NCBI GenBank assembly: GCA_021234155.1
Contig: JAJEKV010000001.1
Span: 28,413,768-28,477,767, forward strand
Origin: Isoetes taiwanensis
Lineage: Eukaryota; Streptophyta; Lycopodiopsida; Isoetales; Isoetaceae
Reading direction: 5' to 3'
DNA: 64,000 nt
Numbering within the stretch: position 1 is the stretch's first letter; every line of letters starts with the position of its first letter. Below are positions 11,709 to 35,579 of the stretch, piece after piece. The position numbers and the translations under genes were made by a program. The notes beneath the pieces were generated by a model. That model saw only the letters and a list, made by a program, of their open reading frames with translations, was not told the DNA's origin and ran no database searches.

Positions 11709-11713
11709 GAGGA

Positions 11714-13297
11714 TGTGACACTCCCTACAAAATATACAGTACCTGACCGTACACCTCATAGGAAATCCTGCATCTGGCCCCCCGCCCGCATGGGCCCTCC
11801 GTCTATCCCGCACTCCAGGATGTCCCTAGTGCGGGAAGGGGATACGAAGGTGTCTTGCGCGCCCTTTCCCTATGGGCTCCTATATCAATGGAAGCATAAA
11901 CAATGTCAACACTAACAACAATAATACATCTAAACACCTCAAAGGGTAGTACATCCATACATCCATAGATATAACAGAGAGAACCATATGCCATAAAACA
12001 TGAGAGCTCCTACCCAGGCTCAGATTCATAAGGAGGTAGATTGACGGCTAGGCTACAAGATGGAGCAGACCGAGGTATAATAATAGCGGGGCTGGCTATA
12101 GACAATGGCTAGGGTTGACCACTCCATCCGCCCCTCATGTGCATACTTTGCAGATGGGCTAAATCAGGCTCTGTTGTGACCATAGCCTGCCAAATATGCA
12201 ATCTCATGGCATCACCCATCGAGACTACTCCGAGTTGCATCTCCCGTTCTGGGGATCTAGAGGCTCCATGGGCAAGTACAGAATCGTGGCGACACACAAT
12301 TCGTACCCAACTGAACCCCCCAAAACAAGAGCCAGGCCGACACCTCCAACTCTTGAGAGGCAGGGCGACACCATTGCCCAGGAGGTGTCAGACCCATACC
12401 CAGCCCACTCGAAGTGACCAACTATAGGCCTAGCCCGCTATGGGTCCCCAGCAGCCGCGCTCAGCAGGGACCTCCCTCCACTTTGCCATTAGCCCTATTA
12501 TGTGGTGTTAAGTAACCTCATGGGTTCCTATGCACAGACCGTATATAATAAGAACTGAGGGGTCCAAACTAGGAGCATCATTTAAATAATGGCTCTACCT
12601 CCCTTCCCAATACAAGAGGAGCAAACATGATCAACCAACATCACATATCCATATAACATGATACATAATGAGAATAACATCTAAACCTAATCACATGCAT
12701 CTAACTTACAGTTAGGGCTCATTGATTAGGGTTCAAGATCTAGACGGAGGGTTCTAGGATGGCTCTACTAGAGATACGAAATGCTAACTCATCTAGAATC
12801 CTAACTTCTAAATGATCTACAAAGGACTCTAACCCAAATATCTGCTCCTAAGGAACTCCCTCCTGCTCCCGGCATCTCTACAGCCTTCAAGGAGTTTGAC
12901 ATAGCTCCCACTCCTACTGATGCACTCATGCTCCGGGGGCTGCTGTACTATGTTGCGCCACAACAGACTGTTCTTGAAATGGAGTTTCGAACGCGAACAA
13001 GGTTCCCAGCGTGTTGGAGCCAGAAAAATGGCCTAGGGTTAGGGTTTGGCCATTTATAGGTTAGGTTGATGTCACCTGCCACATGGCTCCAATGGGGTGC
13101 TTCCGTGTGGAGGGTGCTCAATAGGTTAAGGCTATGTGGAAATGGCCTTAGCCTAAGGTTGGCTAAGTTATATGAATAACTTAGTCATGCTCCATTTTGC
13201 CACCGACTATGGTATACAAGGCTATAATGATAGACTTGTATAATGATGGGCCTAAAAATATACGTATTTATGGCGTATATTTCTCGAGAACGTCACA
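11714..13297 (-). repeat. 3' LTR of the gypsy element
   Basis: 1584 bp beginning TGTGACACTCCCTA and ending GAACGTCACA. It aligns along its whole length with 19,265-20,905 and 33,911-35,537 but is clearly more diverged from them than they are from each other. Short frames inside it are noncoding shadows. Confidence 0.9.
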
Positions 13298-13310
13298 TTC
13301 TCCCCCCTTA
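13298..13310 (-). other. polypurine tract
   Basis: On the minus strand TAAGGGGGGAGAA lies directly against the TGTGACG start of the 3' LTR. This is where plus-strand DNA synthesis of the element would be primed. Confidence 0.85.
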
Positions 13311-13659
13311 GGATAATGCCGTCCTCATCATTGAACCTGCAACAGCCCTGCAAAACTCACAACATGAATATAGAAACTTAACTTTATTGAAAGGATCAAC
13401 TTCCTGTTAATTACTTATTACATAATTATAAGCCTATATATATAACTTATTACAATTATATAGCTGTAACAATTATTATTATAAAAGTATACATACATAA
13501 TATTATTACAACAAATTTAGGAGTTCATAGTTAAGTCTAAAATCTATGACTTCTGTTTTCTCGTAACGTGCTTCCTCCTCCATGCTTCCCTTCACTGGCC
13601 TGCACAAGTAGCACATTACATTATTTAAGTTAGTAAGTTTGTGGTTTTAGTGGACCACC

Positions 13660-14200
13660 CCCTTAATTACCTCCTTGAGCCGAACTACTAGCTCAAGGTT
13701 ACCCCTACTACCTTGCACTCGATCATGGCCCAAAGGATTTGAGCTTAAGGACCGTTTAAGACGATCCTATCATCGCCCATGATTGAGTGCTACCTTGTAC
13801 AAGATTCTCTTGATCATGTACACCCGCAATATATCATGCCCCTGGGGGTTTAAGCTAGGGAACGTCCCAGATAATCCCATCATCGTGCATGATCACGCTT
13901 ACCTCATCATGACCCCCTTATGGTCATGTACACGTGCCGTGCATCATGGCATAGAGAACATTTTAACGATGATCCCATCATCGCGCACGATCCCGTGTGT
14001 ACTCGTGCATGACTCCTTCAGTCATACACACCCCGCAGTGCATCATGGCCCTGAATGTTTAAGCTAGGGAACATTCCATTGATCCCATCATTGCCCATGA
14101 TGCTATACTCCTTTCACATGACCTTCCTAGTCATGCGCACTCTTGGTGTGTACTGACCTAGAGAACGCCTGGGAGATCTCATCATCGCCTACACTCCAAG
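13660..14200. repeat. ~100-bp tandem repeats between pol and the 3' LTR
   Basis: The phrase CCCATCATCG(C/T)GCATGATC and variants recur at about 13,767, 13,877, 13,973, 14,084 and 14,177. They alternate with TCATG(T/C)ACAC and GCATCATGGC phrases. Spacing is about 93-111 bp. This is a noncoding minisatellite in the element's 3' untranslated region. Confidence 0.7.
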
Positions 14201-14252
14201 ATCTTCGTGTATGTATACGCTTTCCTGCACACTCACTAAGACATACATAAGC

Positions 14253-16992
14253 TTAGCTAAGAGCACCCGACAGGTTGACGTCGACCAATTCAGAGATGAC
14301 TTGGCCACGGAATTGCTCCAAGAATTCTGGGTATTGCTTCTCTGGATCTTGCTTTAATACTGATATTGGATCTTCCATAGGCAAGTGCTTCCATTTGACC
14401 AAGTATTGGGGAAATTGAGACCTTATTGTCTCCTTAAATGCTTTGTCGAGAATTAGCTGGGGGACTATCTCGATTTGCTCCTCCATCATCTCCAACAAGT
14501 TGGAGTCTCCAAAACCTCCTCTGGGTTTGGAGTATGGCTCTTAAGTAGGCTCACGTATAAGACTTTGTGGACCCTTTAGATGGGCAGGCAAGTCGAGCTT
14601 GTAGGCTTGGCTCCCTACTCGCTCCAACATCTTGAAAGGTCCCGCCCACCTTGGAGCAAGCTTCTTACAATTGCTGATGTGAAGCTTCCCTTGCTTGATT
14701 ATTTGAGCCAACTTTATCTCCCACAACAAAACAAACTCTCGAGGAGTTTTATGTCTATCTGGTAGACTCTTCTTTGTTTGAAGGTATTCTCGCACTTCTA
14801 CCACAAGCTGCTCCAATTCTGCTGCCGTCGTTGAGAAACTTCCACCTTGGGCACTAGATTATGTCACATAACTGGGGTTAAGCATTGATAACTGTAACTG
14901 ATCATGGAGGGAGACATCTTCAATGACTCTTGCTTCATATTATTGTACGTAACTCGCCTAGCTGGATGTAATCGGCCCATTTGGATTGCTTGTTCCAACA
15001 TAGTTTCTCAACATGTCCTCCAAAATTTTGTTGGTGCGCTCCATTTGCCCATTTGACTGCGAATGATAAGCAACACTCATCCACAAGTTGGTGCAGATCG
15101 TGTTGAAGAAGTCTTGCTAAATGGCACTAAAGAACTTCGGATCTCTATAGGTGATGATCGATCCAGGCATTCCGTACAACCTGAAAAAAAAAAGCTCTTT
15201 TGATGACTTATCTACCACAACCATCAAGGCATCAAGGTTCCCTATTGTCTCTGGAAGGCCCTTTATGAAATCCATGCTGATGACTTCACTTGGCATCCGG
15301 CACCGCCCAGGGTTCCAAAACTTTTGGGATTCGAAGTTGTTCTGCCTTTGTCTGCTGACACAACTGACATTCTTGGATATACCTAACCATCTGCTTCTTC
15401 ATGAGCGTTAAAAAGTAGCTATTTTTAATCTTGAAGTACGCCTTTATAAATCCTGTATGGCCGGTAATAGGGCTATTATGCGTGTGATGGAAGATTAACT
15501 TTCTTACTCCTGATGCTTCAAGTATGCATAGTTGTTCTTTGTGATATAAAAGGTTGCCTTCCTTTTTAAAATGTTTGAAGGTTTCTCTTTCCTTATCCGT
15601 CCTTGCGCTCTTGCAAAGACTAGCCCATATGTGCTTGAACTCCATGCTAGAGGCGGTGGCTTCTTCTATCTTCTTGCTGAATTCGCTTGCCGCAGTGGAG
15701 ATGGTATTGAAAATTGATGCTTCAAAAGCTTGCCAATAAGTGACGACGTCTTACCATCTCCAAGGCTTTCCTCAAATGGACTGCATGTTCTTCCATTGAT
15801 TTGTTGTAGATCACGATGTCGTCGAAGAAAAATTGATGATAAACTCATCGAACAAATCTTTGAAGATGTCGTTTCTCAAGTGCATAAAAGTCATTGGAGC
15901 ATTCGATAGACTCAAGAGGCATTACTATGAACTCATAATGCCCATATCGTGTCCTGAAGCAGTCTTATAGTTATCTTCCTCTTTCATCCCTATTTGATAA
16001 TTGCCCAACCTTAGGTCAATGTTGTAGAATAATCTTGCTCCTTGGGCCGATCCATTACGTTGTCTGCTTGTTGAGCTGCCGATGGTTGATATACATCCTT
16101 AGACTTCTACCCTCGCCGAAAGGATCCCCAAGTCGAGCAACTCCTACACTGCTTCTTGAGCTCTGCTAGCTCAAGAGTGCTCATTGTATAAGGAGCTTTG
16201 CTGGTCGGCTCTGCATCTGGAGCAAGAGTGATTTCACACTCTACGTCTCTATAGAGCAAAAGCTCTTGATTAGCTAGCAATCGGCCGAGGCAACGGTTTT
16301 CATCTTCCTTCTTACTTGCTTATGATAATCAATTATTGCCTTAGTAGGCTTTAATATTCCATGCCTAGTATAAGGTCATACTTGCCAATGTACATAAGTT
16401 GGCGCCGATGCTCTACTTTTCTCCGCTTAAGGTCGATGTCGAACTTGACTCTTGTTCCTTTGGTGCTGCTAATTGCTCAGCCTTGCCATGCTTACTTAGC
16501 CTAGATTTAGACTTACGAGTCTTACTCTTAAAGATGTCCGCCATCTAAGAGGTGCAAGGTTATATGTTAAAGAATTATTTACATATAAATCATGTGGCCA
16601 CAAGGTTAGTCAACGTGACATTTCCTTTCAACATAAAACTATGCAATTAAATAATTATTCTTGTTTTAAATCTAATTTATACTCTAGGATCTCCCCTTTC
16701 TTAATTATTTCCCTGTTGAAATAGTCCCACCTTTGAGTTGATGCCATCTAAGAAGTTGGCCGGACTTATTAGATTGCTTCCCTTCATTTGGTCGGATTAT
16801 TTCTTATGTTGTAAAGGTACTCGTCATATACATGGTTGACGATTATCCTATTATTGAATCCTGCTTAGCGAGGTGATCAAGCTCACGAAGAGGTTCCAAT
16901 ATGTTGGATATCTGTCATCAATGTATATAATTATTGTACTCCATACGTTTTTCTTCCCAATCCTTGAAGCTTTGCTCAATTCTTGGGTCCAT
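14253..16992 (-). pseudogene. degenerate gypsy pol (protease-RT-integrase-chromodomain)
   Basis: From high to low coordinates: a possible frame start MDPRIEQSFKDWEEKRM (16,992); a short basic frame MADIFKSKTRKSKSRLSKHG (16,544-16,413); KYDLILGMEY, the segment joining protease to RT (about 16,390); RT pieces including the catalytic FFDDIV (15,812-15,829) followed by MEEHAVHL; the integrase zinc domain with H-x-H and C-x2-C (KLIFHHTHNSPITGH, CQLCQQTKAEQ; 15,645-15,286); the start of the integrase core, ISMDFIKGLPE (just below 15,286); and the post-core block KLAPRWAGPFKMLERVG (14,816-14,541). Last comes QYLVKWKHLPMEDP (14,498-14,253), the Y-L-V-K-W-K core of a chromodomain. Only about 100 bp separate the RT thumb from the integrase zinc domain, so RNase H is missing. 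Frameshifts and stops occur throughout. Confidence 0.85.
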
Positions 16993-17256
16993 CTTTTCTA
17001 AAAGAAATGACAAAAATCTACTCGAAATTTCGTCCCAATCCCATCATGGATGTTCACCCATCATGGAGGAATTTCTTAAGTAATTTTACAATTTTGGACA
17101 ATTTATGCCATTAAAGAAGGCAATCGAGTGTTATCGCGCGAAACGCATCTGCGTCAAGGCGGTAAGATCTGAGTGGACCAATTTTGATGCAAAAGTCAAA
17201 TTTAATGGAAAATTTTAAGCTAACATTAGTAATAAGAACAATCTAGTTACATTAAG

Positions 17257-17501
17257 AAAGATTTTACACCAATTTGATTTATACAAAATTATCTCAGTAC
17301 AAAATTAGAAGCTCTTAAGGCTTCTCCTTCCAGATCCTTCTAGCTAAATGGAGATCCTTGGGCATCACTGTTACCCTCTAAAGATTTTGCACCAATTTGA
17401 TTTATACAAAATTATCTCAGTACAAAATTAGAAGCTCTTGAGGCTTCTTCTTCCAGATCCTTCTAGCTAAATGGAGATCCTTGGGCATCACTGTTACCCT
17501 C
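17257..17501 (-). repeat. 122-bp tandem duplication over the 3' end of the H3-like frame
   Basis: 17,257-17,378 and 17,379-17,501 are nearly identical, both with AATTTGATTTATACAAAATT and GATCCTTGGGCATCACTG. The right copy holds the end of the H3-like frame. The left copy repeats its last ~25 codons downstream of the stop, without reading through. Confidence 0.85.
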
Positions 17502-17821
17502 TTCGCATGAATGGCACACAAGTTGCCTTCCTCAAAGAGCTGTACCAGCTCTGGCTCTGCTGCTTCTTGAAAGGATCGGACCGTTAGAGGTGTAACCCTA
17601 TAGTCGGTCTGAAACTCCTGCATGATCTCCCGGAGGAGCCGATCGAATGGCGCCTTCTGGATCAAGAGATTAATGCACTGCTGAAAGTGCCTAAACTCTC
17701 GAAACACCTGGGCGTGCTTCGAGTTAGGTCCATGATGGACCTTCGTCGGAGGCTCTGGCCGTGGTGGTGGCGGCTTCGGCTGGTTCTTTGGCCTGCCACC
17801 CCTAACGTACTTCTGTACGTT
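17417..17821 (-). CDS. histone H3-fold protein in the gag slot of the gypsy element
   Basis: A stop-free minus-strand frame of 134 codons, close to the 135-136 of histone H3, that continues the longer upstream frame. Residues 1-40 are basic and proline-rich ([13 protein letters not shown]-hook-like). From about residue 41 the H3 core aligns without gaps: [16 protein letters not shown] (alpha-N), [10 protein letters not shown] (alpha-1), FQTDYR (loop 1), [20 protein letters not shown] (alpha-2), [18 protein letters not shown] (loop 2 to alpha-3). By hand about 50 of 84 residues match canonical H3. Loop 1 has canonical length, so it is not obviously CENH3. The tail lacks the ARKS sites. There is no ATG in this stretch, and twelve stops interrupt the frame upstream. 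It may be an element-borne H3 variant or a captured host gene. Function and expression are unknown. Confidence 0.8.
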
Positions 17822-18751
17822 TTATTTGCAGTACCAATCATTATATCAGGTCCATCGGCGTAGATGTATCTTGTATTCTGCCTTCTTCTTCTCGTACCTA
17901 ATATCTTGCTTCAGGTTAAATGGCTTCTCGCTCATCTTGTACTCCTTGGCCCTCTTCTTGGGTGGCTTGGGCTACAATGGATATGGTGGCCGAGTGTAGG
18001 CTCCATCTGTTCTTCAGCTTCCTCCTACTCTTCTTCAGGGTCTTGCTCCCCCTCTTGTTGGTGCGATTCCTCCTCCTCGGACTCGCCCGCCTCTGGTTCG
18101 TCCTCTTGTGGTTCCCTAATAACCATGCTCCCCCTCCGCCTATGTTTGCACCTCTTTGTTTGCGTCTCTCTTGCCTACGTCTCTTCCTGCTGCTGGGGCT
18201 CCTCCTATTGTCGAGGTTGCTCCTGCTGCTTGCTGCTCACCCGTTCTTCTTGGTGTTGGGGTTGCTCCTACTATCGAAGTTGCTCCTGATGCTTGCTCCT
18301 CACCTGCTCTTCCTATTGTTGAGGTTGCTTCTACTGTCGAGGTTGCTCCTGCTGCTTGCTCCTCACTTGTGGAATCGGAAGCTACGATCTCAATTTCTCC
18401 CTAGCATTGCGATTATTCACCTGAAGTGCTAAGCCGTTGTTCCTCCAAGAGTGATTACGATTCGTCTGAAGAGCTTGAGTGGCTAAGTTCGTCGTCTGGC
18501 CTAGGCAGCAGGACCTCAAGAATTTGTTTGCCATCGTCCGCAGAGTGCTTCAACGTTCAGGCACAGGCTGGAGCTTCCAACCTTCCTAGCTACTTGTTTG
18601 GTCCTCCCAACAACTTAGCTTCCTTGATCGTGGCCTCTTCGAGAGCTCTTGCCTCTATCAATGGTTGAGTATGTTTATTCGTGGCTCCCTTGGGCGGATC
18701 TCGCAGATTGTTCGTTCGGTGCACCCTCTTATGGTAGCTTTGGAGATTAGC
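17822..18751 (-). pseudogene. degenerate upstream part of the gag-slot frame (Ser/Glu-rich, repeat and RGG segments)
   Basis: The frame of the H3-like protein extends upstream for 310 codons with twelve stop codons but no frameshift. Its composition looks coding. In order: a charged stretch (ALEEATIKEAKLLGGPNK); a Ser/Asp stretch; roughly 15-residue repeats of the type EEQA(A/S)GATS; an RGG-rich stretch (TRGRTRGGRVRGGG); then a Lys-rich stretch (KPPKKRAKEYK, RYEKKKAEYK). No CCHC knuckle or recognisable capsid fold is present. The opposite strand has an open, repetitive Val/Ala/Pro frame (18,156-18,404) with fewer stops, so the coding strand is not beyond doubt. Orientation and continuity with the H3 domain favour the minus strand. 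Confidence 0.55.
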
Positions 18752-19246
18752 TTATAATTCATCTTACAAGGATAAAGGAGAGATTTAAGCTACCATTTGG
18801 GAACTTCTAAGAAGTAGAGGTGCTTCCATAAATTTAGTGGCTACTTTCCCTAAGAATAATTTATTATAACTATGGGTTATTAATTAAGGTACTTTCTCTA
18901 ATCATCTTAACTGTTTTTTGAAATTTCCCTATTTCTTTTGGGCCAAGTATTGGTCATTTCGCGCCATTTTCTTTCAAGCTTTCTTTTGAGCGATTTTTTG
19001 TTCAATTTTCGCTTGAAGGGTGCGGTTCATGAACAACGTGAGCTCAATTTACGAGAAGGTTTCTTTGATTATATTGTTTCTATCACTTAGACTATAACTT
19101 AATCCAATATGACCCTGCTAATGGGAGAAAAAAAAAATCTCCCACATTGCGCTGTTCAAGACTGAAATTCTCATTCCATTCTTTAACTAGGCCAGTTAAT
19201 CTACCTATTCAGGGGATATAGTCGATTAGCTCTTGGTCAACCAAGA
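18752..19246. other. untranslated leader of the gypsy element
   Basis: AT-rich sequence between the gag-slot frame and the PBS, with no convincing frame. It is also present in the duplicated copy (33,394-33,892). Confidence 0.6.
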
Positions 19247-19264
19247 ACATTGCTCTGATATCAT
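19247..19264 (-). other. primer-binding site (initiator tRNA-Met)
   Basis: On the minus strand ATGATATCAGAGCAATGT directly follows the CA end of the 5' LTR. TGATATCAGAGC differs at one base from the plant tRNA-iMet PBS TGGTATCAGAGC. This fixes which LTR is 5'. A second copy lies at 33,893-33,910. Confidence 0.85.
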
Positions 19265-20905
19265 TGTGACGCTCCCTATAAAATATATGGTACTAGACCG
19301 TACACCTCATAGAAAATCCCCCATCCGGCCCTCCCGCCACATGGGCCTTCCGTCTATCTCGCACTCCAGGATGTCCCTAGTGCGGAGGAGACACGAAGGT
19401 GTCGTGCGTGCCCTTCCCCTATGGGCTCCTATAACAGCGGAAGCATAAACAATGTCAGCACTAACAACAACAATACATCTAACTACCTCGAAGGGTAGTG
19501 CATCCATACATCCATAGATACAACAGAGAGAACCATATGCCATAAAACATGAGAGCTCCTACCTAGGCTCAGACTCATAAGGAGATAGACTGACGACTAG
19601 GCTACAAGATAGAGCAGACCGAAGTATAACAATGGCGGGGCCGGCTATAGACAATGGCTAGGGTTGACCACTCCATCCGCCCCTCCTGTGCATACTTTGC
19701 ATATGGGCTAAATCAGGCTTTAGTGTGACTATAGCCTGCCGGATACGCAATCTCATGGCATCACCCATCGAGACTACTTCGGGTTGCATCTCCCCAATCC
19801 GATGAGGCGGGAAGGGTTGCATCTCCTCTTCCGGGGGTCTAGAGGCTCCATAAGCGGCTAGAGAATCGCGGCGACACACGATTCATACCTGACTGAACCC
19901 CCAAAACAAGAGCTAAGCCGACACCTGCAACTCTTGAGAGGCAGGGCGACACCATTGCCGCAGGAGGTGTCACCCATACCCGACCCACTCGAAGTGACAG
20001 ACTATAGGCCTAGCCGGCTATGGGTCCCGAGTAGCCGCGTTTAGCAGGGACCTCCCTCCACATTGTCACTAGCCCCGTTATGTGATGCTAAGACACTTCA
20101 TAGCCCCCGTAGCCGGGTGGGTTCCTATGCACAGGCCACATATAATAGGAACTAAGGGATCTAAACTAGGAGCATCATCTAAATAATGGCTACTAGGTCT
20201 CTACCCCCCTTCCCAATACAAGAGGAGTAAACATGATCAACCAACATAATATATCCACATAACATGATACATAAATGAGAATAACATCTAAACCTAATCA
20301 CATGCATTTAACTTACAGTTAGGGTTCATTGATTAGGGTTCAAGATCTAGACTGAAGGTTCTAGGATGGCTCTACTAGAGATACGAAATGCTAACTCATC
20401 TAAAATCCTAACTTCAAGATGATCTACAAAGGACTCTAACCCAAATACCTGCTCTTGAGGAACTCCCTCCTGCTCCTGGCATCTCCACAGCCTTCAAGGG
20501 GTTCGACGTAGCTCCCACTCCTGCTGATGCACACAGGCTCTGGGGCCTGTTGTGCTATGTTGTGCCACAGCAGACGGTTCTCAAAACGGAGTTTCGAGCG
20601 CGAACAAGGTTCCCAGACTGTTGGAGCCAGAAAAATGGCCTAGGGTTAGGGTTTGGCCATTTATAGGTTAGGGTTGATGTCACCTGCCACGTGACTCCAA
20701 TGGGGTGCTTTCATATGGCGATCGCCCAATAGGTTAAGGCCATATGGAAATGGCCTTAGCCTAAGGTTGGCTAAGTCATAGGAATAACTTAGTCATGCTC
20801 CCTTTTGCCATCGACTATGGTATACAAGGCTATAATGATAGACTTGTATAGTGACGGGCCTAGAAATATATGTATTTATGGCATATATTTCTTGAGAACG
20901 TCACA
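19265..20905 (-). repeat. 5' LTR of the gypsy element
   Basis: 1641 bp from TGTGACGCTCCCTA to GAACGTCACA, followed by target duplication GAGGA (20,906-20,910). It contains the promoter-side sequence of the element. It is nearly identical to 33,911-35,537 because both belong to the tandem duplication. Confidence 0.9.
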
Positions 20906-20949
20906 GAGGACCTATAGATTCCAAGATATCAGCCCTTAAGGAAGGAACC

Positions 20950-21725
20950 TAACCGTGTATGTTTAGGTAGATAGACTAGATGTTATTCTGTATTTTAGTT
21001 CTATGGATGATCATGTTCTATCTCTACGTGCACTCCTATATATTGGGAAGGGGGGTAGAGATCCCGAAAGCCTTAGTGGATGATGTATCTAGTTAGCTTC
21101 ATTAATTCGCAATTAATGTGGCTTGTGCATAAGAGCCCACCTGGCTATGGGTGGTGGAGCTAGACTGGCTGACAAGGAAGACTTGTCCGGTTACAGTTGA
21201 ACCCTCTAGTGTGTAAAGCCTACAAGGAAACACCGTGGGCTAGGCCTAATAGCTTGCCACTGAGTGTGGGCAAGGTATGGGCTCGACACCTCTTGGATGA
21301 TGCATCACCTTCAATGGGGTTGAAGTCGTAGACGAGCAGTAGCTCTCCAGCCCGCCTGTAACTGGCATGTATCTTCTGGAGGGGAGTGATCTCCTCCTGC
21401 CTCATCGGGAACTGGGGAGATGTAACTCAGGAGTAGCCCCTTTGACTATGCATCTGGTAGGCTACAATCAGGCTCCAAGACTTACCAGCCTATCTACAAA
21501 GTATGATAAGAGGGGCGGATGGAGTGGACTACCCAATGACCATGTTTTATGCCAGGCAAGTCCATTGTTATGAACTCTGTCTACTTTGACCTCTGGAGAT
21601 CCGAGCTGTCAGTCGATCCCCTTGAGTCTGAGCCTTGGATAGGATCCCCCTTATGTTGATGTTACTGTTGTTGTTGTTCCAGATGCTATGTTATGGTGAG
21701 CCACCCTTCGAGGTGTATATATATG
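20950..21725 (+). repeat. older related LTR relic in inverted orientation
   Basis: This segment is a diverged reverse complement of parts of the gypsy LTR. TATTGGGAAGGGGGGTAGAG mirrors CTCTACCCCCCTTCCCAATA at about 20,195, and GGGGCGGATGGAGTGG mirrors CCACTCCATCCGCCCC at about 19,665. The element therefore sits immediately beside an older relative of opposite orientation. Copy B of the relic is at about 35,580-36,355. Its short frames are shadows. Confidence 0.7.
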
Positions 21726-22290
21726 TTATTTGATGTTATGTGCTCACTAGAAAAAGTGCCCAGGCTGTTTGGGCTATCAGGCAATTGTTGGGTTATAAAG
21801 CGTCGTTGGTCATTATTATGCTGTAAAGTTTAGTTTTATGAATTTGTTAAGAGAAACATATGTATGAAATAATCATTGATAAAGTAAAATTTAGAATCAA
21901 TACAAATATTCTTAGCAATTGTATGTCATTCATTATCACTGCAAATTTCATCATAAATTTTACATGCTTTAGCTTTGTTCATCACTACTACAACTCTTTA
22001 GAAGACTCTAATTTCTGTTGGAGTTAATCTAATTTTGCCTTTTGATAACCACATGACATTTGCAATGGTTAATGATTTTCTATAACTTGTATATTGATTG
22101 TTGTTTAGGTGCTTACTGATGGTGAGCCGCAGTTTCATTCAATAACTTCAAAGCTTGATGCTTCTGAACGGGAGTTCATATGTACTTGTGTCATTTTTAT
22201 AATCATTTAGTGAGAACACTTGTTGATCAATTAAATAATATTAAGTGATGGATAGTGATTTACAACATTTACAGCTTTGAATAATGCTTA
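21726..22290. other. no gene recognised; one exon-like block
   Basis: AT-rich. A block after TTGTTTAG (about 22,109) reads VLTDGEPQFHSITSKLDASE on the plus strand behind a good acceptor, but no partner exon or family is evident. It lies beside the Helitron's 3' side, so it could be captured sequence. The matching block in copy B starts near 36,736. Confidence 0.35.
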
Positions 22291-22300
22291 CTCTTAGAAG

Positions 22301-23880
22301 TTACGCAATCTCATCTTGAAGCACCTCCTTGCAGACGATGTTTAGGGTGTAGGTCTCTTCATTTCCAGTCAAGTTCCCTTGCTTGCTTGTGTTTTCTACA
22401 TACGTTCTGGTGCCGCTCTCGGATGTGTACCTAGAGAGTGTGACATATAGTTGCTTATGTGAGAAGACTAGCTCACGTGTAAGCGGTTCTCGACGCCGAT
22501 CTAATGATTGCCCTTGTGACTTTGAAATCGTCATTGAAAATGCAACTCTAACAGGGAACTGACATCTTGTGTATGGGATTTGCCTATCTGACAGTGTCAA
22601 CTTATGCTTGGCAAAAATACTTGTTTTCTTTTGTGATTTCCTGTAATTATGCGCGCATATATGGAGTGTGTTAGAGCATTATCAACTTGCAATCTCGTTA
22701 TACATAGTTGGAAATTGTTCTTGTGATATATATGCACCATATATCTTGTCAATGATATCATTTTGAGCGACACAACCCCGTGGAATATGTACTATATTAT
22801 TTGTGAGGCCCTCATCATTCATGGTCTCGCCATTACCTAGATGCAATAGGTACGCTGACCAGATCCTTTCATGTGGTGCTACACACATATTTTGTATGAG
22901 CTTGTGGAAAGTAAATTGTGTCCACAAAGGATTTTCCTTCACACACTTCGAAATTTTCAGTGCTTTGCTTGCTCTCTTTACAACAGGTAGCAATTGCCTA
23001 AATTCACCGGGAGCAACCAGTATGATGCCACCAAATGGCTCCTCGTTTTGCCTTATCTCCTTCAAAACTTTGTCAACTGCTGTAAAAGCATCTGTATGGG
23101 TCATCCCTATTTCATTCCATATTAGAAGTTTTGCTTTGCGTAGTGAGTCTACTTCTTTACTAACAGGTCATAAAGTGGATGCTGATTCTGGATGGAGACT
23201 AAGAGGCAATTTAAAAGTTGAGTGCACGGTTCGAGCACCTTTTAGTAGGAGGCTTGCTATGCCTGTCCAAACTACTGTGACAACTCCTTCTTTCATGGAT
23301 CTGAGTATGCTTATGAGTGCGTTAAAGGAGAAAGTCTTTCTTGTACCACCTGGGCCATCGATGTTGTGGCATTTGTTGCTGCTTGTAGGGTTCTGTACCA
23401 GGTGTATGATGGTGTCTATAATTTGTAGTTGCTCACTATTTAGCTTTTTGTATTGCTATGTTGCTTCAATTAGCTCTTGCTCAATGTCAATTGCCATTGC
23501 ATCATCAAGGAATTCTAAATTAGGATCAGGAGAGTTGGTAGGCCAATAATTTGACAAGACATGATGTTTGCTTCTAAAATCTGGTTGATGTCAGTAAGTG
23601 CTCTATTTTCTGCTACTGTTTGTGGCATTTGTCTTAGGTAATCCTCACACAGGTCTTGCTTGAATTTTTGCCATAGTGTTGGCGGATCATACAGCTCATT
23701 GTGTACACATATGAATGCAAATATCTGTTGGAGCTGCAATGGCATTTGGTAGTTAGCTGCCTCCTCAAGCCCTAGTTCCCATTCATGGTCAACAAGGACC
23801 AGACCAGATTCTTTGGCAGCTTCTTTGAACATTGTGCATTGTTTTCCATTGACATGCAATAAGTCCTCATAACTTGTCAC
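22301..23880 (-). pseudogene. Helitron helicase (PIF1-like), copy A, inactive
   Basis: Minus-strand pieces in order: the pre-helicase block TSYEDLLHVNGKQCTMFKEA (23,880-23,515); Walker A region (23,333-23,356) reading GPGGTRKT, with Arg before the Lys where Gly is expected; Walker B (just above 23,104) reading WNEI instead of W-D-E; motif FGGIILVAPGEFRQLLPVV; HIPRGCVAQNDIIDKIYG (23,104-22,682); and the C-terminal [15 protein letters not shown] and LYVTLSRYTSE (22,600-22,301). This is the 5'-3' helicase module that unwinds DNA during rolling-circle transposition. The changed Walker A and B residues and several stops indicate an inactive protein. The long plus-strand frame at 22,803-23,549 is a shadow of this. 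Confidence 0.85.
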
Positions 23881-23985
23881 CCCTTTTGCATGGAGTAATA
23901 ATAGTCAAAGGTAGAATCTTTCTCCCTCCTGAGGCTTGACATTATACATCTTGGTCACGATCTTTGTTGTATTTTGCCTAGCTAT

Positions 23986-25130
23986 TCACTTCTTGATGTT
24001 TTTGCCTTTCTCTTTTTCATATTTATAATGGAAGGGTATTTCTGCATACGTATACGATCTTGCATGTTCTTTTTCTGCATTGAGTTTAAACCACGCAATC
24101 AACATTGTGCCCTCTTGATGCATGTTGGATAGTCTGGTGTTCTTGTCCTGCCATATACTGCAATCGTTGTTAAAATGGCAAGTGCACTGGAAGACGTATG
24201 ATTGTGTGTGAGTTTGCATGCATCTCGTACTTGTTCAGCCTCCATATTCCTTCAGGCACTGATATGTATCTACTATCCAAGTATGTTTGGACCTCATCTC
24301 AATCTAAGGATCTGTCGTCTGTGGGTATTAGCCCAATACTTGCACAATCATAGCCCTTGTATATTTATACTTGTATATATAATTTATGCTGTTAATTCCT
24401 TGGCAGTTCTCTACATTTATGTGAGCTCTGTACTTTGCAAGCATGTAAGGATTATGAGGAACTATCCAACTATTGTCTACACTAATGTTTGGACATTTAG
24501 AATGGGTGTAACTTTTGCCTGTGTACCTCCTCTTGTATTGTGGATATCCATTCTCATTAAGACTTGTTGCCTTGTTGAAATCCTTTGGATAGGATTTGGT
24601 GCAGTTAGCAATTTCTGAATCTGATAGCACTTACATGGCATATTTAGTCTGCCTTGTCCACATGGCCTATGTATCATGTGGTTCATGCCAAGCTCATGTA
24701 GGTATAGACTGGATGCAGGATCTGGTATTTCGGCACTGATTGTTTGGTCTATTTGTTCAATTGTTTGAATTTTCTCATCGAGTATGAGCAACATGTGGCA
24801 ATGTGGCGAGCCCCTTTTTTGAAATTCAATAGTGTATGTCCATGCCTTAGCTTTTCCAAAGACCTGTTTTTTCAGTTATGTCTTTTAAGAACTCCCGTAG
24901 CTTTAGATAAAAGACCCTAGCGACAAGGTCAAGCCTATCGCTTGCTGTTTGGTGGGGGCATAGGTTCATTTGGATTTCAACCCATCTTGGATTACATGTG
25001 TACGTGTGAATAAGTCAGGTTTACCATGGCATCTGACTACCGTGGTGAAGAAAGAGAATTGCCGGAAGCCTGACTTATATATTCTATTAGCCCTTGGTAC
25101 AATTCCACTCGTCAAAAAGTGGGAGAACTA
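23986..25130 (-). pseudogene. Helitron Rep (HUH nuclease) module, copy A, inactive
   Basis: Minus-strand reading from high coordinates: FRQFSFFTTVVRCHGKPDLF, then CNPRWVEIQ and LDLVARVFYLKLREFLKDIT. After a frameshift come the two-histidine motif SPHCHMLLIL (about 24,812-24,784), IDQTISAEIPDP, MNHMIHRPCGQGRLNMPC, SYPKDFNKAT and NGYPQYKRRYTG. The last part is WQDKNTRLSNMHQEGTMLIA and YAEIPFHYKYEKEK. HUH Reps nick one strand to start rolling-circle transposition. At least three frameshifts break the protein. Together with 22,301-23,880 it makes a RepHel gene. The Helitron ends (5' TC, 3' hairpin plus CTRR) were not located. Confidence 0.85.
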
Positions 25131-26339
25131 GCCAAAATAGGAGGATCGATGACATAGCCAACGAACTTCCCAAAATGGGACGAATTTCGAAGGTAGAAAT
25201 TTTGACACTCTAAGAGAAACCCTTTTAGCATATAATGCATGACGGGTTGAAATTACAGTCTAAAAATAAACACAGATATCAAAAATGACCCCCACCTATA
25301 TGCTTTGACCTGATATTAACAGGAAATTTCTGCAGAAGAAATCGGAAGCTAGTGCCAGTACACAAGTGCCCTCATCAAAGTCGGGTCCATCTTTAATAGC
25401 CAAGTCACCTGAATCTTTGAAGGCCAACTCACCTGAATCTTTGAACGTGAAGTCGCATGAATCTTCAAAAGGCAAGTCTGCTGATTTGGACAAAAACCTA
25501 TTGCCCCGATTCAAAACTAGACTCGAAATGGTTATAAAAATAAAAAATTGCCTCAATCGAAGCTCTGGTTTTTGAGATATGTCCAACTGAAGCTCAGCTA
25601 GATGTCTCCACGACTTTTTGCTTTTAATTTGAATACTTGACTTATCATCTATGGGATATTATCTAAGGCCTTTTATTCAAGCTTGACCCCAACTGATAAT
25701 ATCATGACCATTTCAATGATAGAGCTTCAAACAAATAATCATAAGCTAGGGAAAGGATTTGCACACCTCTTCATAGTCAGATATGAACCTTTGCCCGGTT
25801 TGGATAGCTCTTTATTTCTTCGAGAGCTTCTTATGTAGACTGCATGGTGCTTCCCCATTTTTTTGCTCCCCGGCAATGAAATCCCCAACCCGTGAGGTGG
25901 GAATGTGGCACACCCACACCCGGTTGAGTACCTCCCTCTTGCGGTTCGGGACTCGATGCTCTAACATAATCCGGGGTAGTCGATCGCGGATCAAAATGCC
26001 CTTCCTGCGGGTCTGCTTTGCCAAATGCCCGCTTTTGGTACCGTTGTCACTAAAAATGTTATCGAGCTTGCCCTTTGCAAGGACATGGAATTCAGTTGTT
26101 CCAGGCACTTACCTCCTCAATCTTCTCGTCCAAGTCCATGCCGAGCTCCCCGCCGCCGTCGTCGAATAGAGGTAGGGCAAAACAGAACAGGTGATTCCAT
26201 GGAATGGTATGAACAAATGATCGGGATGAGCATTTTAAAATTTTCATGGGTGGATTCGACGACGCCATGGCCGTCGATCTGGTCCTTTATATGCTGTCTC
26301 GATATTGACACGTGTCGAACATGCAACTGCGTAGCTGGG
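25131..26339. other. noncoding, with a 27-bp / 9-residue tandem repeat at 25,385-25,480
   Basis: A short plus frame (25,366-25,575) contains KSPESLKANSPESLNVKSHESSKGK, i.e. three copies of a 27-bp unit, and is also present at 39,996-40,208. From about 25,780 to 26,330 the DNA is GC-richer and contains many small differences from copy B. No recognised gene. Confidence 0.5.
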
Positions 26340-26820
26340 GTGATTTTGTCTGGCGGAATTCCATCGGGGTGATTCCGCCGGGAGGAATCAGATTGTGGTG
26401 ATTCCGCCGGGCGGAATCACAATGTGGTGATTCTGCCAGGCGGTATCAAGATTTGGTGATTCTGTCACGCGGAATCAGAATATGGTGATTCTGCCAGGCG
26501 GAAGTGGAGATTTCATCGGACGAAATAACAAGTCGGTGATTCCTTCTGGCGGAATTACAAATTGGTGATTCTGTCCGACGGAATTACAAGTTGGTGATTC
26601 TGTCTGGCGGAATTCTTCACGATGTGATTCCGCCTGGCGGGATATCATCCACAATATTCCGTGCCGTGGAATCAGTGACGGGTGATTCCGCGGGGGTGCA
26701 TACTAAAACGTGATTCCATCCGGCAGAATCAAGGCAATGTGATTCCATCGCGTGGAATAATTATGTGGTGATTCCGTCCGGCGGTATTCTACTGTTGTGA
26801 TTCCGTGGGGAAGTATAAAA
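26340..26820. repeat. palindromic minisatellite upstream of the BTB pseudogene (copy A)
   Basis: About 17 units of 28-32 bp, each built on GTGATTC(C/T)G(C/T)C-N-GGCGGAAT. The core GATTCCGCC...GGCGGAATC is a near-perfect inverted repeat, so each unit could be a dimeric protein site or a small hairpin. The array ends at TATAAAA (26,814-26,820). Copy B of the array is at 40,973-41,446. Confidence 0.85.
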
Positions 26821-27449
26821 CGGACAGCCATGATTCAACCTGCAGATGGATGGCTACGATCCATCAGAAAGTACACCTGTCTCTGTGTCAGGTACAGATA
26901 ATGGGGCCTCCGAAACGGATCCCGTTCCCGGATGGTCTGTGATTCCGCGAGAAAGTATTCACCGCAATAGAATCACCAAAACCAGGGTAAAGCTATTTTC
27001 ACCCCCTAGTGGTGTGACATTAAAGTGTTATCTATCTATATTGACTCGTCTTTTTAAAGTTTACGGTTAAACTTAATGTTTCCTGGTTAAGTGAGGCTAG
27101 TGCATGGGCAGATAGAGCGAGCCTTGTGCTTCCTTTATTTCCTCGAAATTAATTAATCCGACATTTACCGGGATGGATAATTTTCCCCAAATAGCCCGCC
27201 CTTCAAAGAATCCGTGATGTGACTTTCCGTTTTTTATTAGATTCGCTCTCCGTCCCTTTTGTCCGGACATGGACGCCGCTCCATTTAATTTTTCCGATAT
27301 AGAGCAACGGTTCAATCCAAAAGGAGCTTGTGAGCGCTTTGCATGGGAGCATTTGAATTGAACGGAATGCTCCAACGCTTTTTTTTGCTTTCGTAGCTTC
27401 CCCGCCCGAGAAAACATTAGTGGGCTTGTTATTTCTATCATTTCCTTGA

Positions 27450-28130
27450 ATGGATACTTCTTCTTCGAAAGAGGATGACATTTTGAAACTGCATCCAAGA
27501 GCTTTGTGGCTTGATTTTACTGAGGAAGACACTTGCGATATGACATTAAGAATCAGCCGACCATAAAATTCATTGCAAGAAATACGTTTTGCTACCCGGA
27601 TGTGGGTTCTTTAGGCGCCTCTGCAGATATGTGGATAAACCGAGACACATGTATATAGATATGGAGGCTTTTCCGGGAGGGATAGAAAATTTTCAAACCA
27701 TATTGAAGTTTTGCTATGGGAACGAAATTGACTTGGTTGCGGATATCGATTTTACGTATCTTAGCCAAGGAGCCACCTTTTGGGCATGAACAGATCGGTC
27801 ATGTTTGATGAAGATAATCTGGCGAGTTATGTGACAAGTTTTGGCAAGATTATATGCTAAGTTCATGGAGATCAGTATTCAAAACGTTGGCTCTTCTTCA
27901 ACAGGCAAGGATGCATCTGTCTATATCTCATATTAATGGTTACATGCAAAAATGCAAGAAAGCGCTATGCATGTTGGTGAAAAGCATCCATTCATGGGAG
28001 TTAGACGATTTCATGAAGAAGTTAGTTTTGCTACCTGAATATCAGCTGGATGTTATAATCTCAGGCTTAAGAACAGTGTGGCATTCATGCCAGCAAAAAG
28101 CACTGATTGATTCTTTTGTTTTAGCAGCTC
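27450..28130 (+). pseudogene. truncated BTB/NPH3 gene, copy A
   Basis: It starts like the intact gene (MDTSSSKEDDILKLHPRALW) and follows its exon 1 up to codon ~227 (DSFVLAA), where the duplication junction cuts it off. Relative to copy B it has frameshifts near 27,558 and 27,779 and a single-base loss near 27,822. Most differences are CAG or CTG in copy B written as CGG, CG or ACG here, so some frameshifts may be consensus errors. The truncation itself is real, because the joined sequence matches 17,809 onwards. The NPH3 C-terminal half and the ubiquitin-like exon are lost. Confidence 0.85.
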
Positions 28131-28305
28131 ACTTCTGTACGTTTTATTTGCAGTACCAATCATTATATTAGGTCCATCGGCGTAGATGTATCTTGTATTC
28201 TGCCTTCTTCTTCTCGTACCCAATATCTTGCTTCGGGTTAAATGGCTTCTCGCTCATCTTGTACTCCTTGGCCCTCTTCTTGGGTGGCTTGGCCCTCTTC
28301 TTGGG

Positions 28306-31300
28306 TTATTTTGCTACATATTCTAAACGAGGTGCACCCTGGACTACCACAATCGTCGGATCTGTCAATCCGACGGCCCAGACTGTATGTTGGAGCCTCT
28401 GGACACCTCTCGTTTCGATTATGCTCAATTATGATTGGGGACGCCTATGATTTTAAGATGTCGAATACGAGTTTGCCTAAGGTTTTGATGGTATATCGAG
28501 CCTCTATACGGTTTCGCTTAAGCTTTTAGAATATGAAATACGGGGATTCGAACCTCTACCAAAATAACTCAATGTCCTAATAAGACTACTTTAACCAATC
28601 TAACCAGTGAGCTAATGTGACTATTTTTTATCTTAAATCTATGTTTTTTTTTATAATAACCCATTGAATTGTTTTAGGGATATGGTCTATGGTTTCAAGA
28701 ATTATATCTATATCAAATCCCCCTGGAACCCCCTGTTATTTTGCTACATATTCTAAACGAGGTGCACCCTGGACTACCACAATCGTCGGATCTGTCAATC
28801 CGACGCCCCCGCATCGCATGTTGGAGCCTCGACACCTCTCGTTTCGATTATGCTCAATTATGATTGGGGACGCCTATGATTTTAAGATGTCGAATACGAG
28901 TTTGCCTAAGGTTTTGATGGTATATCGAGCCTCTATACGGTTTCGCTTAAGCTTTTAGAATATGAAATACGGGGATTCGAACCTCTACCAAAATAACTCA
29001 ATGTCCTAATAAGACTACTTTAACCAATCTAACCAGTGAGCTAATGTGACTATTTTTTATCTTAAATCTATGTTTTTTTTTATAATAACCCATTGAATTG
29101 TTTTAGGGATATGGTCTATGGTTTCAAGAATTATATCTATATCAAATCCCCCTGGAACCCCCTGTTATTTTGCTACATATTCTAAACGAGGTGCACCCTG
29201 GACTACCACAATCGTCGGATCTGTCAAATCCGACGCCCGCATCAGATGTTGGAGCCTCTGACACCTCTCGTTTCGATTATGCTCAATTATGATTAGGGAC
29301 GCCTATGATTTTAAGATGTCGAATACGAGTTTGCCTAAGGTTTTGATGGTATATCGAGCCTCTATACGGTTTAAGCTTAAGCTTTTAGAATATGAAATAC
29401 TGATTTCAACCTCTACCAAAATAACTCAATGTCATAATAAGACTACTTTAACCAATCTAACCAAAGGAGCTAATGTGACTATTTTTATCTTAAATCTATG
29501 TTTTTTTTTTATAATAACCCATTGAATTGTTTTAGGGATATGGTCTATGGTTTCAAGAATTATATCTATATCAAATCCCCCGAACCCCTCGTTATTTTGC
29601 TACATATTCTAAACGAGGTGCACCCGGACTACCACAATCGTCCGGATCTGTCAATCCGACGGCCCGTGATCAGATGTTGGAGCCTCTGGACACCTCTCGC
29701 TTCGATTATGCTCAATTATGATTGGGGACGCCTATGATTTTAAGATGTCGAATCACGAGTTTGCCTAAGGTTTTGATGGTATATCGAGCCTCTATAACGG
29801 TTTCGCTTTAAGCTTTTAGAATATGAAATACGGATTCAACCTCTACCAAAATAACTCAATGTCATAATAAGACTACTTTAACCAATCTAACCAAGTGAGC
29901 TAATGTGACTATTTTTTATCTTAAATCTATGTTTTTTTTTTAATAAACCCATTGAATTGTTTTAGGGATATGGTCTATGGTTTCAAGAATTATATCTATA
30001 TCAAATCCCCCGAACCCCTCGTTATTTTGCTACATATTCTAAACGAGGTGCACCCCGACTACCACAATCGCCGGATCTCGCCAATCCGACGCCCAAAATC
30101 AGTATGTTGGAGCCTCCGACACCTCTCGCTTCGATTATGCTCAATTATGATTGGGGACGCCTATGATTTTAAGATGTCGAATCAATGAGTTTGCCTAAGG
30201 TTTTGATGGTATATCGAGCCTCTATAATGGTTTAAGCTTAAGCTTTTAGAATATGAAATACTGGGGATTCAACCTCTACCAAAATAACTCAATGTCATAA
30301 TAAGACTACTTTAACCAATCTAACCAAAGGAGCTAATGTGACTATTTTTATCTTAAATCTATGTTTTTTTTTATAATAACCCATTGAATTGTTTTAGGGA
30401 TATGGTCTATGGTTTCAAGAATTATATCTATATCAAATCCCCCGAACCCCCAAGTTATTTTGCTACATATTCTAAACGAGGTGCACCCCGGACTACCACA
30501 ATCGTCGGATCTGTCAATCCGACGCCCGCATCAGTATGTTGGAGCCTCCGACACCTCTCGTTTCGATTATGCTCAATTATGATTGGGGACGCCTATGATT
30601 TTAAGATGTCGAATCTGAGTTTGCCTAAGGTTTTGATGGTATATCGAGCCTCTATACGGTTTCGCTTTTAAGCTTTTAGAATATGAAATACTGGGGATTC
30701 AACCTCTACCAAAATAACTCAATGTCATAATAAGACTACTTTAACCAATCTAACCAAAGGAGCTAATGTGACTATTTTTATCTTAAATCTATGTTTTTTT
30801 TATAATAACCCATTGAATTGTTTTAGGGATATGGTCTATGGTTTCAAGAATTATATCTATATCAAATCCCCCGAACCCCCGTTATTTTGCTACATATTCT
30901 AAACGAGGTGCACCCCTCGACTACCACAATCGCCGGATTCATCAATCCGACGCCCGCATCAGTATGTTGGAGCCTCTGGACACCTCTCGCTTCGATTATG
31001 CTCAATTATGATTGGGGACGCCTATGATTTTAAGATGTCGAATACGAGTTTGCCTAAGGTTTTGATGGTATATCGAGCCTCTATACGGTTAAGCTTAAGC
31101 TTTTAGAATATGAAATACGGGGATTCGAACCTCTACCAAAATAACTCAATGTCATAATAAGACTACTTTAACCAATCTAACCAAAGTGAGCTAATGTGAC
31201 TTTTTTTTATCTTAAATCTATGTTTTTTTTTATAATAACCCATTGAATTGTTTTAGGGATATGGTCTATGGTTTCAAGAATTATATCTATATCAAATCCC

Positions 31301-32620
31301 CCGAACCCCCCATTATTTTGCTACATATTCTAAACGAGGTGCACCTCGACTACCACAATCGCCGGATCTGTCAATCCGACGGCCCGATCAGTATGTTGGA
31401 GCCTCTGGACACCTCTCGTTTCGATTATGCTCAATTATGATTGGGGACGCCTATGATTTTAAGATGTCGAATCTGAGTTTGCCTAAGGTTTTGATGGTAT
31501 ATCGAGCCTCTATAATGGTTTAAGCTTAAGCTTTTAGAATATGAAATACTGGGATTCAACCTCTACCAAAATAACTCAATGTCATAATAAGACTACTTTA
31601 ACCAATCTAACCAAAGAGCTAATGTGACTATTTTTTATCTTAAATCTATGTTTTTTTTATAATAACCCATTGAATTGTTTTAGGGATATGGTCTATGGTT
31701 TCAAGAATTATATCTATATCAAATCCCCTCGAACCCCTCGTTATTTTGCTACATATTCTAAACGAGGTGCACCCCGACTACCACAATCGTCGGATCTGTC
31801 AATCCGACGGCCCGGACCGTATGTTGGAGCCTCTGACACCTCTCGCTTCGATTATGCTCAATTATGATTGGGGACGCTATGATTTTAAGATGTCGAATAA
31901 TGAGTTTGCCTAAGGTTTTGATGGTATATCGAGCCTCTATACGGTTTAAGCTTTTAAGCTTTTAGAATATGAAATACTGGGATTCAACCTCTACCAAAAT
32001 AACTCAATGTCATAATAAGACTACTTTAACCAATCTAACCAGTGAGCTAATGTGACTATTTTTTATCTTAAATCTATGTTTTTTTTTATAATAACCCATT
32101 GAATTGTTTTAGGGATATGGTCTATGGTTTCAAGAATTATATCTATATCAAATCCCCCTCGAACCCCTCAAGATTTTGCTACATATTCTAAACGAGGTGC
32201 ACCCCTCGACTACCACAATCGTCGGATCTGGCAACAATCCGACGCCCGCATCAGATGTTGGAGCCTCTGGACACCTCTCGTTTCGATTATGCTCAATTAT
32301 GATTGGGGACGCCTATGATTTTAAGATGTCGAATACGAGTTTGCCTAAGGTTTTGATGGTATATCGAGCCTCTATACGGTTTCGCTTAAGCTTTTAGAAT
32401 ATGAAATACGGGGATTCGAACCTCTACCAAAATAACTCAATGTCCTAATAAGACTACTTTAACCAATCTAACCAGTGAGCTAATGTGACTATTTTTTATC
32501 TTAAATCTATGTTTTTTTTTATAATAACCCATTGAATTGTTTTAGGGATATGGTCTATGGTTTCAAGAATTATATCTATATCAAATCCCCCTGGAACCCC
32601 CTGTTATTTTGCTACATATT
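28306..32620. repeat. satellite array, ten ~430-bp units
   Basis: Units begin TTATTTTGCTACATATTCTA at 28,306, 28,736, 29,165, 29,592, 30,022, 30,455, 30,882, 31,313, 31,741 and about 32,171, plus a 17-bp stub at 32,604. The array sits in copy B of the tandem duplication where copy A has GGGCTACAATGGATATGG, so GCTACA-A/T microhomology marks both insertion edges. Units 1, 2 and 10 are nearly identical. Inner units carry small indels clustered at CTGG, CAG and CG. Repeated short frames are shadows. Just before the array, 28,131-28,305 repeats 17,809-17,984. Confidence 0.92.
28532..28621 (-). ncRNA. tRNA-like / SINE-type Pol III promoter in satellite unit 1
   Basis: On the minus strand TAGCTCACTGGTTAGA is a good A box. 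About 59 nt after its start GGTTCGAATCC is a perfect B box. The 5' GTCACAT and 3' ATTTCAT ends cannot form an acceptor stem, so it is tRNA-derived rather than a tRNA gene. The same block recurs in every unit. The B box is intact in units 1, 2, 7 and 10 and written as GATTCAACC (one base short) in the others. Confidence 0.65.
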
Positions 32621-35537: not shown

Positions 35538-35579
35538 GAGGACCTATAGATTCCAAGATATCAGCCCCTAAGGAAGGAA

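Follow-up and report, generated by a model that had tools for sequence, protein, structure and literature searches.

Can an LTR retrotransposon encode a core histone of its own? The question is raised by a locus of Isoetes taiwanensis (a lycophyte, not a fern as an earlier note on this DNA had implied), where an open frame with a histone H3 fold lies inside a retroelement. We analysed the 64,000-nucleotide stretch that holds this frame (C907:28413768-28477767, hereafter the window) and searched the genome, 1,658,258,908 bases (1.658 Gb) in 1110 contigs, for relatives. The paper describing the genome gives 1658.30 Mb in 204 scaffolds and 909 unplaced contigs; the word "histone" is absent from its main text (PMC8566536).

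An H3 fold within a decayed LTR retrotransposon

The window contains one LTR-retrotransposon insertion spanning positions 11714-20905, with GAGGA at both ends (Table 1). Its LTRs have diverged by a p-distance of 0.0975 (K2P 0.106), and the primer binding site (PBS), which we take to be of the tRNA-Met type, adjoins the 5′ LTR. The region from integrase to chromodomain (15708-14259) is present and broken, and the RNase H expected after the reverse transcriptase (RT) is missing between RT and integrase. A tblastn search with the proteins of relatives described below recovered no gag, ORF2, third frame or RNase H from this copy. The chromodomain match scores 19.1 bits, under the cut-off of 25.1, against E-values of 3.3e-9 and 1.8e-8 in relatives. 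The earlier note had described an LTR element with a terminal chromodomain; the LTRs, the GAGGA repeats and the PBS bear this out, the chromodomain being below threshold in the window and strong in the relatives.

The H3-fold frame has 134 codons in the list of open reading frames. It matches the Pfam Histone family (PF00125) with an E-value of 5.9e-27 (94.8 bits, cut-off 26.4) and, in the PDB, Histone H3.1 with an E-value of 1.2e-27 over residues 37-123. Aligned with a plant H3.1 sequence, it is 59.3% identical over 86 gap-free positions, H3 residues 46-131. Both the fold and the gap-free alignment of the core, which the earlier note had put at about 50 identities in 84 residues by hand, were thereby confirmed. 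R42 and R63 are altered, and so is R40 in the alignment with plant H3.1. The loop 1 segment is 17 residues long, the length found in H3; that of Arabidopsis CENH3 being, we presume, 19 residues, a centromeric H3 was ruled out.

Coding periodicity extends upstream of the open frame to approximately 18.4 kb, where the reading frame has shifted and is interrupted by stops, and the 134 codons are therefore the surviving end of a longer protein. A profile of the whole ORF1 protein of relatives matches the window at 17893-17456 with 113 bits, compared with 100 for the fold alone, and the decayed stretch has words in common with the frames of two other copies of the same type (L038 and L039). The interval 17417..18751 that the earlier note gave for the histone domain is wider than the open frame; between 17822 and about 18400 it covers the eroded coding sequence for the upstream part of this protein. 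All eight in-frame stops of the decayed acidic part (18027-18384) are TAG, the outcome expected if methylated CAG had decayed while the element lay silenced. The H3 profile also matches at 17380-17333, within or near the 123-bp tandem copy listed in Table 1, and profiles of the ORF1 N-terminal domain (N-domain) and of ORF2 had no significant match in the decayed element. An AlphaFold model of the frame was poor (pLDDT 67.9, pTM 0.41) and was left unused; a neutral-decay simulation (0.212 open, 0.017 without indel) was superseded by direct dN/dS estimates. The window copy is best explained as a broken-down representative of an extensive group of Ty3/gypsy elements that carry a chromodomain and encode H3 in ORF1.

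Table 1. Coordinates of the element and of associated repeats in the window.
Feature	Position	Strand	Basis
Target-site duplication GAGGA (left)	11709..11713		sequence
3′ LTR	11714..13297	-	blastn self-match with 19265-20905
Polypurine tract, adjoining 3′ LTR	13298..13312	-	sequence
Integrase C-terminal frame, degenerate, with weak chromodomain	14253..14540	-	PF00385 E 0.0013; aligns with chromodomain-bearing protein of L029
Integrase SH3-like domain	14541..14858	-	PF24626 E 2.1e-12
Integrase zinc-binding domain (H2C2)	15286..15750	-	PF17921 E 2.3e-12; 64% identity to L015 over 140 aa
Broken reverse transcriptase remnant	15710..16268	-	tblastn with L015 gag-pol
Tandem copy of 3′ end of H3 frame and following sequence	17257..17379	-	123-bp repeat, 98% identical
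H3-fold open frame, C-terminal part of decayed ORF1	17417..17821	-	Pfam; PDB; at least 149 genome relatives
Decayed upstream ORF1 (basic and acidic insert of H3 tail)	17822..18400	-	several stops, at least one frame change
Primer binding site	19252..19263	-	one base from TGGTATCAGAGC; exact in 13 of 20 relatives
5′ LTR	19265..20905	-	blastn self-match
Target-site duplication GAGGA (right)	20906..20910		sequence
Second copy of 17809-17970 (piece of ORF1 insert)	28131..28292	-	98.1% identical; part of segmental duplication

Beyond the element, the window is rich in duplications. A 10.2-kb stretch with half of the element occurs twice (17978-28131 and 32620-42765, 97.5% identity), the copies being separated by an array of 10 tandem 429-bp units (28305-32620); the arrangement reflects either a genuine duplication in tandem or two haplotypes placed one after the other. 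By eye, frames duplicated at 22301-24875 and approximately 36.9-39.5 kb resemble a Helitron-type helicase protein, and an open 512-codon frame at 42083-43621 resembles a BTB/NPH3-type plant gene, part of which is repeated at about 27818-28131 and cut at the duplication joint. Further along lie what appears by eye to be a pentatricopeptide-repeat gene, a single frame split by one stop (48841-50772), and about 2.6 tandem copies of a 4.3-kb unit with 96-97.5% identity (51419-62490).

Relatives throughout the genome

Searching the genome with the window protein identified at least 149 relatives besides the window (75-87% identity, E ≤3.7e-63), all 150 of the candidates scored, the best of 9686 from the first look, being matches. 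The earlier note had envisaged a one-off capture should hits be confined to this locus; the number of relatives, together with the regular presence of H3 in LTR elements, rules this out. Counted by eye, 17 of these 150 best rows (window included) are free of stops and 133 contain them. In a parallel search with the Pfam Histone profile, 15 of 150 rows (the best of 8704 first-look candidates) span the profile from position 2 and resemble whole host H3 genes. Most of the others begin further in, many near position 20, and their frames reach up to 494 codons. A family B protein (families are defined below) used as query gave at least 111 match rows from the best 90 of 12132 first-look candidates, with stops in 35 of the first 70 by eye. 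The first-look totals (8704, 9686 and 12132) are raw candidate numbers and not counts of copies.

Twenty loci with frames of at least 451 codons were taken from the 150 Pfam Histone rows, a choice by histone score and open frame that favours conserved copies. They fall into families A (n=7), B (n=12) and C (n=1). In every one the H3 fold ends a frame of 451-494 codons, which in L022 continues some 27 codons beyond the fold. Sequence like the window 5′ LTR lies upstream of ORF1 at 18 of the 20 loci (it is absent in L018 and L026). The PBS is exact at 13, 495-1267 nt before the frame, and has one mismatch at another; a repeated search of the remaining six found none. The LTR and PBS that the earlier note proposed to look for around other H3 loci, along with gypsy pol, are thus largely in place; for the window subfamily the window is the one source of LTR context, L038 and L039 having been read as 1.3-kb pieces. 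Four hand-picked loci with short frames gave profile matches to the H3 fold and insert in all four cases and to the N-domain in three; the PBS was present in two.

The association was also approached starting from gag-pol, with a query taken from L028 that yielded 63 scored candidates, all matching. At least 15 of these have an H3 match, listed in the Pfam Histone or family B search, upstream on the same strand at 0.25-2.7 kb; 13 of the distances fall between 2.48 and 2.67 kb, the remaining ones being 0.25 and 0.59 kb. L028 itself and L011, both among the 15, already belonged to the locus set. Among the H3 matches listed, none is downstream of, or on the strand opposite to, any of the 63. On the contigs carrying gag, none of 71 window-type H3 rows falls within 6 kb of the 63 gag-pol matches, so the gag-pol of the window subfamily is probably a more distant one.

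Protein-database searches returned ordinary or long-tailed H3s (in one search, among the best 120 of 489) and, in a further search, one weak pol match. A database protein named Nicastrin carries a histone domain. Four long-tailed H3s of 370-687 aa (P0121, P0122, P0123 and P0124) come from ENA contigs; two of them start with MACMKQTARK and MARTKQTARK and have a long insert ahead of the fold, a design like that of ORF1.

Organization of full copies

For five loci further sequence was fetched piece by piece, and both ends were obtained in three (L013, L011 and L015; L017 and L028 were extended without both ends). The order in full copies is 5′ LTR, PBS, ORF1 (H3), usually ORF2, a third short frame, gag-pol with chromodomain, and 3′ LTR. 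L013+L029 and L011+L031 each measure about 13.2 kb, with LTR identities of 91.6% and 96.5% and target-site duplications of 4/5 bases and GTGGC/GTGGC, respectively; L015+L030 measures about 11.2 kb (CAATC/CAATC, LTR identity approximately 93%). The LTRs of L024 are 95.5% identical. LTRs with TG..CA ends and a 5-bp target-site duplication, as in Ty3/gypsy elements, were found in the window, L015+L030 and L011+L031. In the frames tested, Pfam recognised Ty3 capsid, Retrotrans_gag, protease, RT, RNase H, integrase and chromodomain. L015+L030 has the complete Gag-PR-RT-RH-INT order with a C-terminal chromodomain, L029 runs from RT through chromodomain, and L011, L025, L027 and L028 have partial sets. 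The Histone family is matched with E-values of 1.9e-43 (L015), 2.6e-38 (L009) and 2.6e-41 (L025).

Because an ordinary Ty3 capsid/gag-pol frame comes after it in the relatives, the H3 frame is ORF1 and not gag; the separate gag also eliminates H3 as a replacement for it. The "gag position" assigned to the histone by the earlier note is a position left by loss, no gag being recognisable in the window copy. ORF2 was read at 11 of the 20 loci (335-502 codons; fragments in L012 and L022), and L015 has no room for it. It is acidic, with 37 K/R to 83 D/E in L027, and has no relative in Pfam or, at E ≤1, in the PDB. The third short frame, read at 11 loci between ORF2 and gag, has no Pfam match. At L013:7134-7649 and L028:7114-7629 it is acidic and about 170 codons long; its 5′ edge resembles a splice acceptor by eye. 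The N-domain profile had no PDB match at E up to 1 and only stray Pfam matches (0.04-0.05). No H4, H2A or H2B partner was found among the element frames given to Pfam.

The ORF1 protein: H3 with a stretched tail

We read ORF1 as an H3 with a large insert in its N-terminal tail and the fold at its C-terminus, the tail being stretched by roughly 270-325 residues. Host H3 begins with MARTKQTARKSTGGK and has 39 residues (with Met) before H39, compared with 314-362 in the 20 copies of families A-C. Element H3s have no canonical short tail with K4, K9, K27 and K36. In the window type, the tip is followed by an acidic and basic stretch of about 270 residues and then by the fold. The frame of L038 stays open for 421 codons, starting ahead of its tip MARTKQTARKFGE and reaching the fold; the tip of L039, MARTKCTARKYSPR, is out of frame with the 400-codon H3 frame of that copy. 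Both of these window-type copies, the two that were read, have an ARTK.TARK N-terminus (MARTKQTARKF and MARTKCTARKY).

Families A-C have tips of the kind METPKQVY.., MPRFKLT.. or MANTKSA.., with variants, all with the ARK motif absent. Given the start Met chosen, a lysine stands at position 4 in all 20 copies. A TGGK-like remnant precedes the fold and position 36 is R in 19 of the 20, L019 keeping K36. A rule that all methyl-lysines are lost was dropped in view of the window-type ARTK.TARK, the K4 of families A-C and the K36 of L019. L025, of family C, has an ARKS motif within the insert (L025:3942-5372), possibly a mimic of the H3K9/K27 motif, or else a chance occurrence. The window-type insert was not recognised by the N-domain and linker profiles of families A-C; the whole-ORF1 profile extends into the window linker, and an alignment of the family C protein to the window covers 150 residues. 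One capture or two are possible for the window subfamily and families A-C.

Selection and origin

The dN/dS ratios, another point raised by the earlier note, were obtained as Nei-Gojobori medians over within-family pairs of the 20 loci, whose choice by histone score and open frame lowers the values; between families dS is near saturation and only few pairs are usable. For the H3 fold, medians are 0.010 in family A (21 pairs, range 0-0.047) and 0.037 in family B (66 pairs, 0-0.168), with dS of 0.55 and 0.74 and dN of 0.005 and 0.029, respectively. The corresponding ratios are 0.139 (21 pairs) and 0.103 (46 pairs with usable dS) for the N-domain, and 0.123 (21 pairs) and 0.212 (60 pairs) for the insert; ORF2 gave 0.098 (3 pairs) and 0.164 (15 pairs). 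Between the folds of L038 and L039, dN is 0.077 and dS 1.617. The fold is under strong, histone-like purifying selection, since dS values of this size with so little dN need selection despite the sampling.

Element folds are 85-89% identical to host H3, and the host residue is present in all 20 copies at 65 of 94 fold positions. Invariant residues include R40, R49, R69, R72, R83, K115, R116 and T118, which we take to be DNA-contact residues of H3, as well as C110, H113, D123, L126 and R129; the invariant fold residues other than the DNA contacts presumably include H4-pairing and H3-H3 contact positions. Among contact residues, R42 is K in 7 of the 20 copies, R63 is C in one and F104 is L in 10. 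For all 20 copies, synonymous divergence from the L001 host H3 exceeds what can be estimated, which suggests that the capture is old. In an H3 tree of 39 rows, an analysis that the earlier note had proposed, the 20 element H3s group in a single clade (support 96/97); the window H3 falls outside it with a long branch, its placement being unreliable.

Discussion

Short target-site duplications are a trait of plant chromoviruses and occur in the Isoetes elements as well. From the part of Neumann et al. 2019 available to us, the two also have in common a tRNA PBS and a chromodomain after gag-protease-RT-RNase H-integrase; the Isoetes elements differ in their approximately 13.2-kb size and in the ORF1 (H3), ORF2 and third short frame ahead of gag (PMC6317226). 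Plant LTR retrotransposons can carry additional ORFs, some upstream of gag-pol, and the resemblance lies in an extra frame, in sense orientation outside gag-pol, that many copies retain; in the passages accessible, those ORFs are env-like or mostly domain-less (an SMC domain occurs in one), no histone is among them, and the word "histone" does not appear (PMC7264820). Orchid Gypsy elements, as described in the text available, have likewise gained and kept a host-type functional domain, in that case an m6A RNA demethylase ORF in large (25 kb) elements and not a chromatin component (PMC9289625). LTR elements of bdelloid rotifers have repeatedly captured extra functional frames (ORF3), but these are of the esterase, exonuclease or env-like kind, with zero occurrences of "histone" in the paper (PMC5408684). 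A parallel in content is the multiplication of H3 by hAT DNA transposons of Dothideomycete fungi, where a mobile element also carries and multiplies an H3 gene; according to the sections available, these are DNA transposons and the P. fijiensis copies are RIP-inactivated except the original gene (PMC3538342, PMC6710886). The Isoetes elements differ in being LTR retrotransposons with a regular long-tailed H3 frame under strong purifying selection, and a transduplicated H3 of the hAT type is ruled out by LTRs, PBS and gag-pol in place of terminal inverted repeats and hAT transposase. Among the listings of a literature search confined largely to openly accessible papers, no LTR element encoding a histone was seen.

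Judged by fold, conservation and placement, ORF1 is almost certainly an H3 variant encoded by the element. Since the fold keeps the residues that serve these functions in established H3 biology, the protein should pair with H4 and bind DNA, and its use in nucleosomes or in H3-H4 pairing appears fairly probable. ORF1 would pair with host H4 and enter nucleosomes; a weaker step is that these would be placed on the element's own DNA, in its favour, loading being possibly assisted by the acidic ORF2. The chaperone role of ORF2 is a guess, being based on its acidity. The benefit would most likely be resistance to silencing based on the tail, families A-C having tips without ARK and R36 in 19 of 20 copies. 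That ORF1 protects the element in this way is put forward tentatively, as rather less likely than not, from the tail sites that are absent; a general loss of K4 and K9 is argued against by the ARTK.TARK of the window subfamily. In its fullest form, the long-tailed H3 would replace host H3 on element DNA with ORF2 as chaperone, the group building nucleosomes of its own; the host could not mark the resulting chromatin in the normal way, or the integrase chromodomain of the element itself would recognise it. We hold this to be possible, though on the doubtful side. According to the tips read, a chromodomain reading the element's own H3 tail, an idea of the earlier note, would fit only the window type, for which self-recognition is possible because two copies keep ARTK.TARK. 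The chromodomain of L029 appears, in our assessment, to be without two of the three aromatic cage positions. Chromodomains of this kind, type II, have no known partner in the available text of PMC6317226.

Among other explanations, the one that survives best, although we think it rather unlikely, is that the H3 fold serves as a tether, pairing with host H4 or docking on nucleosomes so as to guide the particle or the integrase to a chromatin target, with the tail insert carrying the cargo contact; this would complement the integrase chromodomain found in the same kind of element. The retained H4-pairing and H3-H3 residues and a constrained N-domain (dN/dS 0.139 and 0.103) would suit such a role, but a tether could do without conserved arginines at the DNA contacts and without such severe constraint across the entire fold, and we know of no contact of ORF1 with Gag or integrase. 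Less probable still is that ORF1 and host H4 wrap the new cDNA or carry it to the nucleus by the histone import route. An H3 core with most of its DNA contacts, encoded soon after the 5′ LTR of an element that makes DNA, could be so employed; against this, the element frames given to Pfam include no H4, H2A or H2B partner and the cDNA is made in cytoplasmic particles which, to our knowledge, need no histone in other Ty3 elements.

It is very improbable that a host H3, captured once, has merely multiplied with the element without benefit to it. H3 capture by DNA transposons has precedent in fungi, as far as the accessible text goes (PMC6710886, PMC3538342), and many copies are broken (stops in 35/70 and 133/150 best rows, by eye), yet fold dN/dS of 0.010 and 0.037 at dS 0.55 and 0.74 are hard to obtain without selection during multiplication, and the same holds for L038 and L039 (dN 0.077, dS 1.617). 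A host H3 variant or centromeric H3 gene located next to or within a nested insertion, or else an error of assembly, might be suspected from the large recent duplications of the region, but can practically be discounted given an arrangement repeated at many places on many contigs, the many window-H3 relatives and a loop 1 of H3 length.

We favour a working H3 variant of the element's own, one that probably enters nucleosomes and thereby protects or steers the element, and give this reading as a whole about even chances. Mobile elements are usually silenced through the histones of their host; if the favoured reading is true, an element with its own selected core histone edits the substrate of silencing, and an arms race would be under way at the level of the nucleosome. 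The long-tailed proteins would offer a natural experiment on the requirement for the H3 tail, and the type II chromodomains of plant elements, so far orphans, would gain a candidate partner in ORF1. In genomes such as this one, histone-domain counts can be dominated by element copies.
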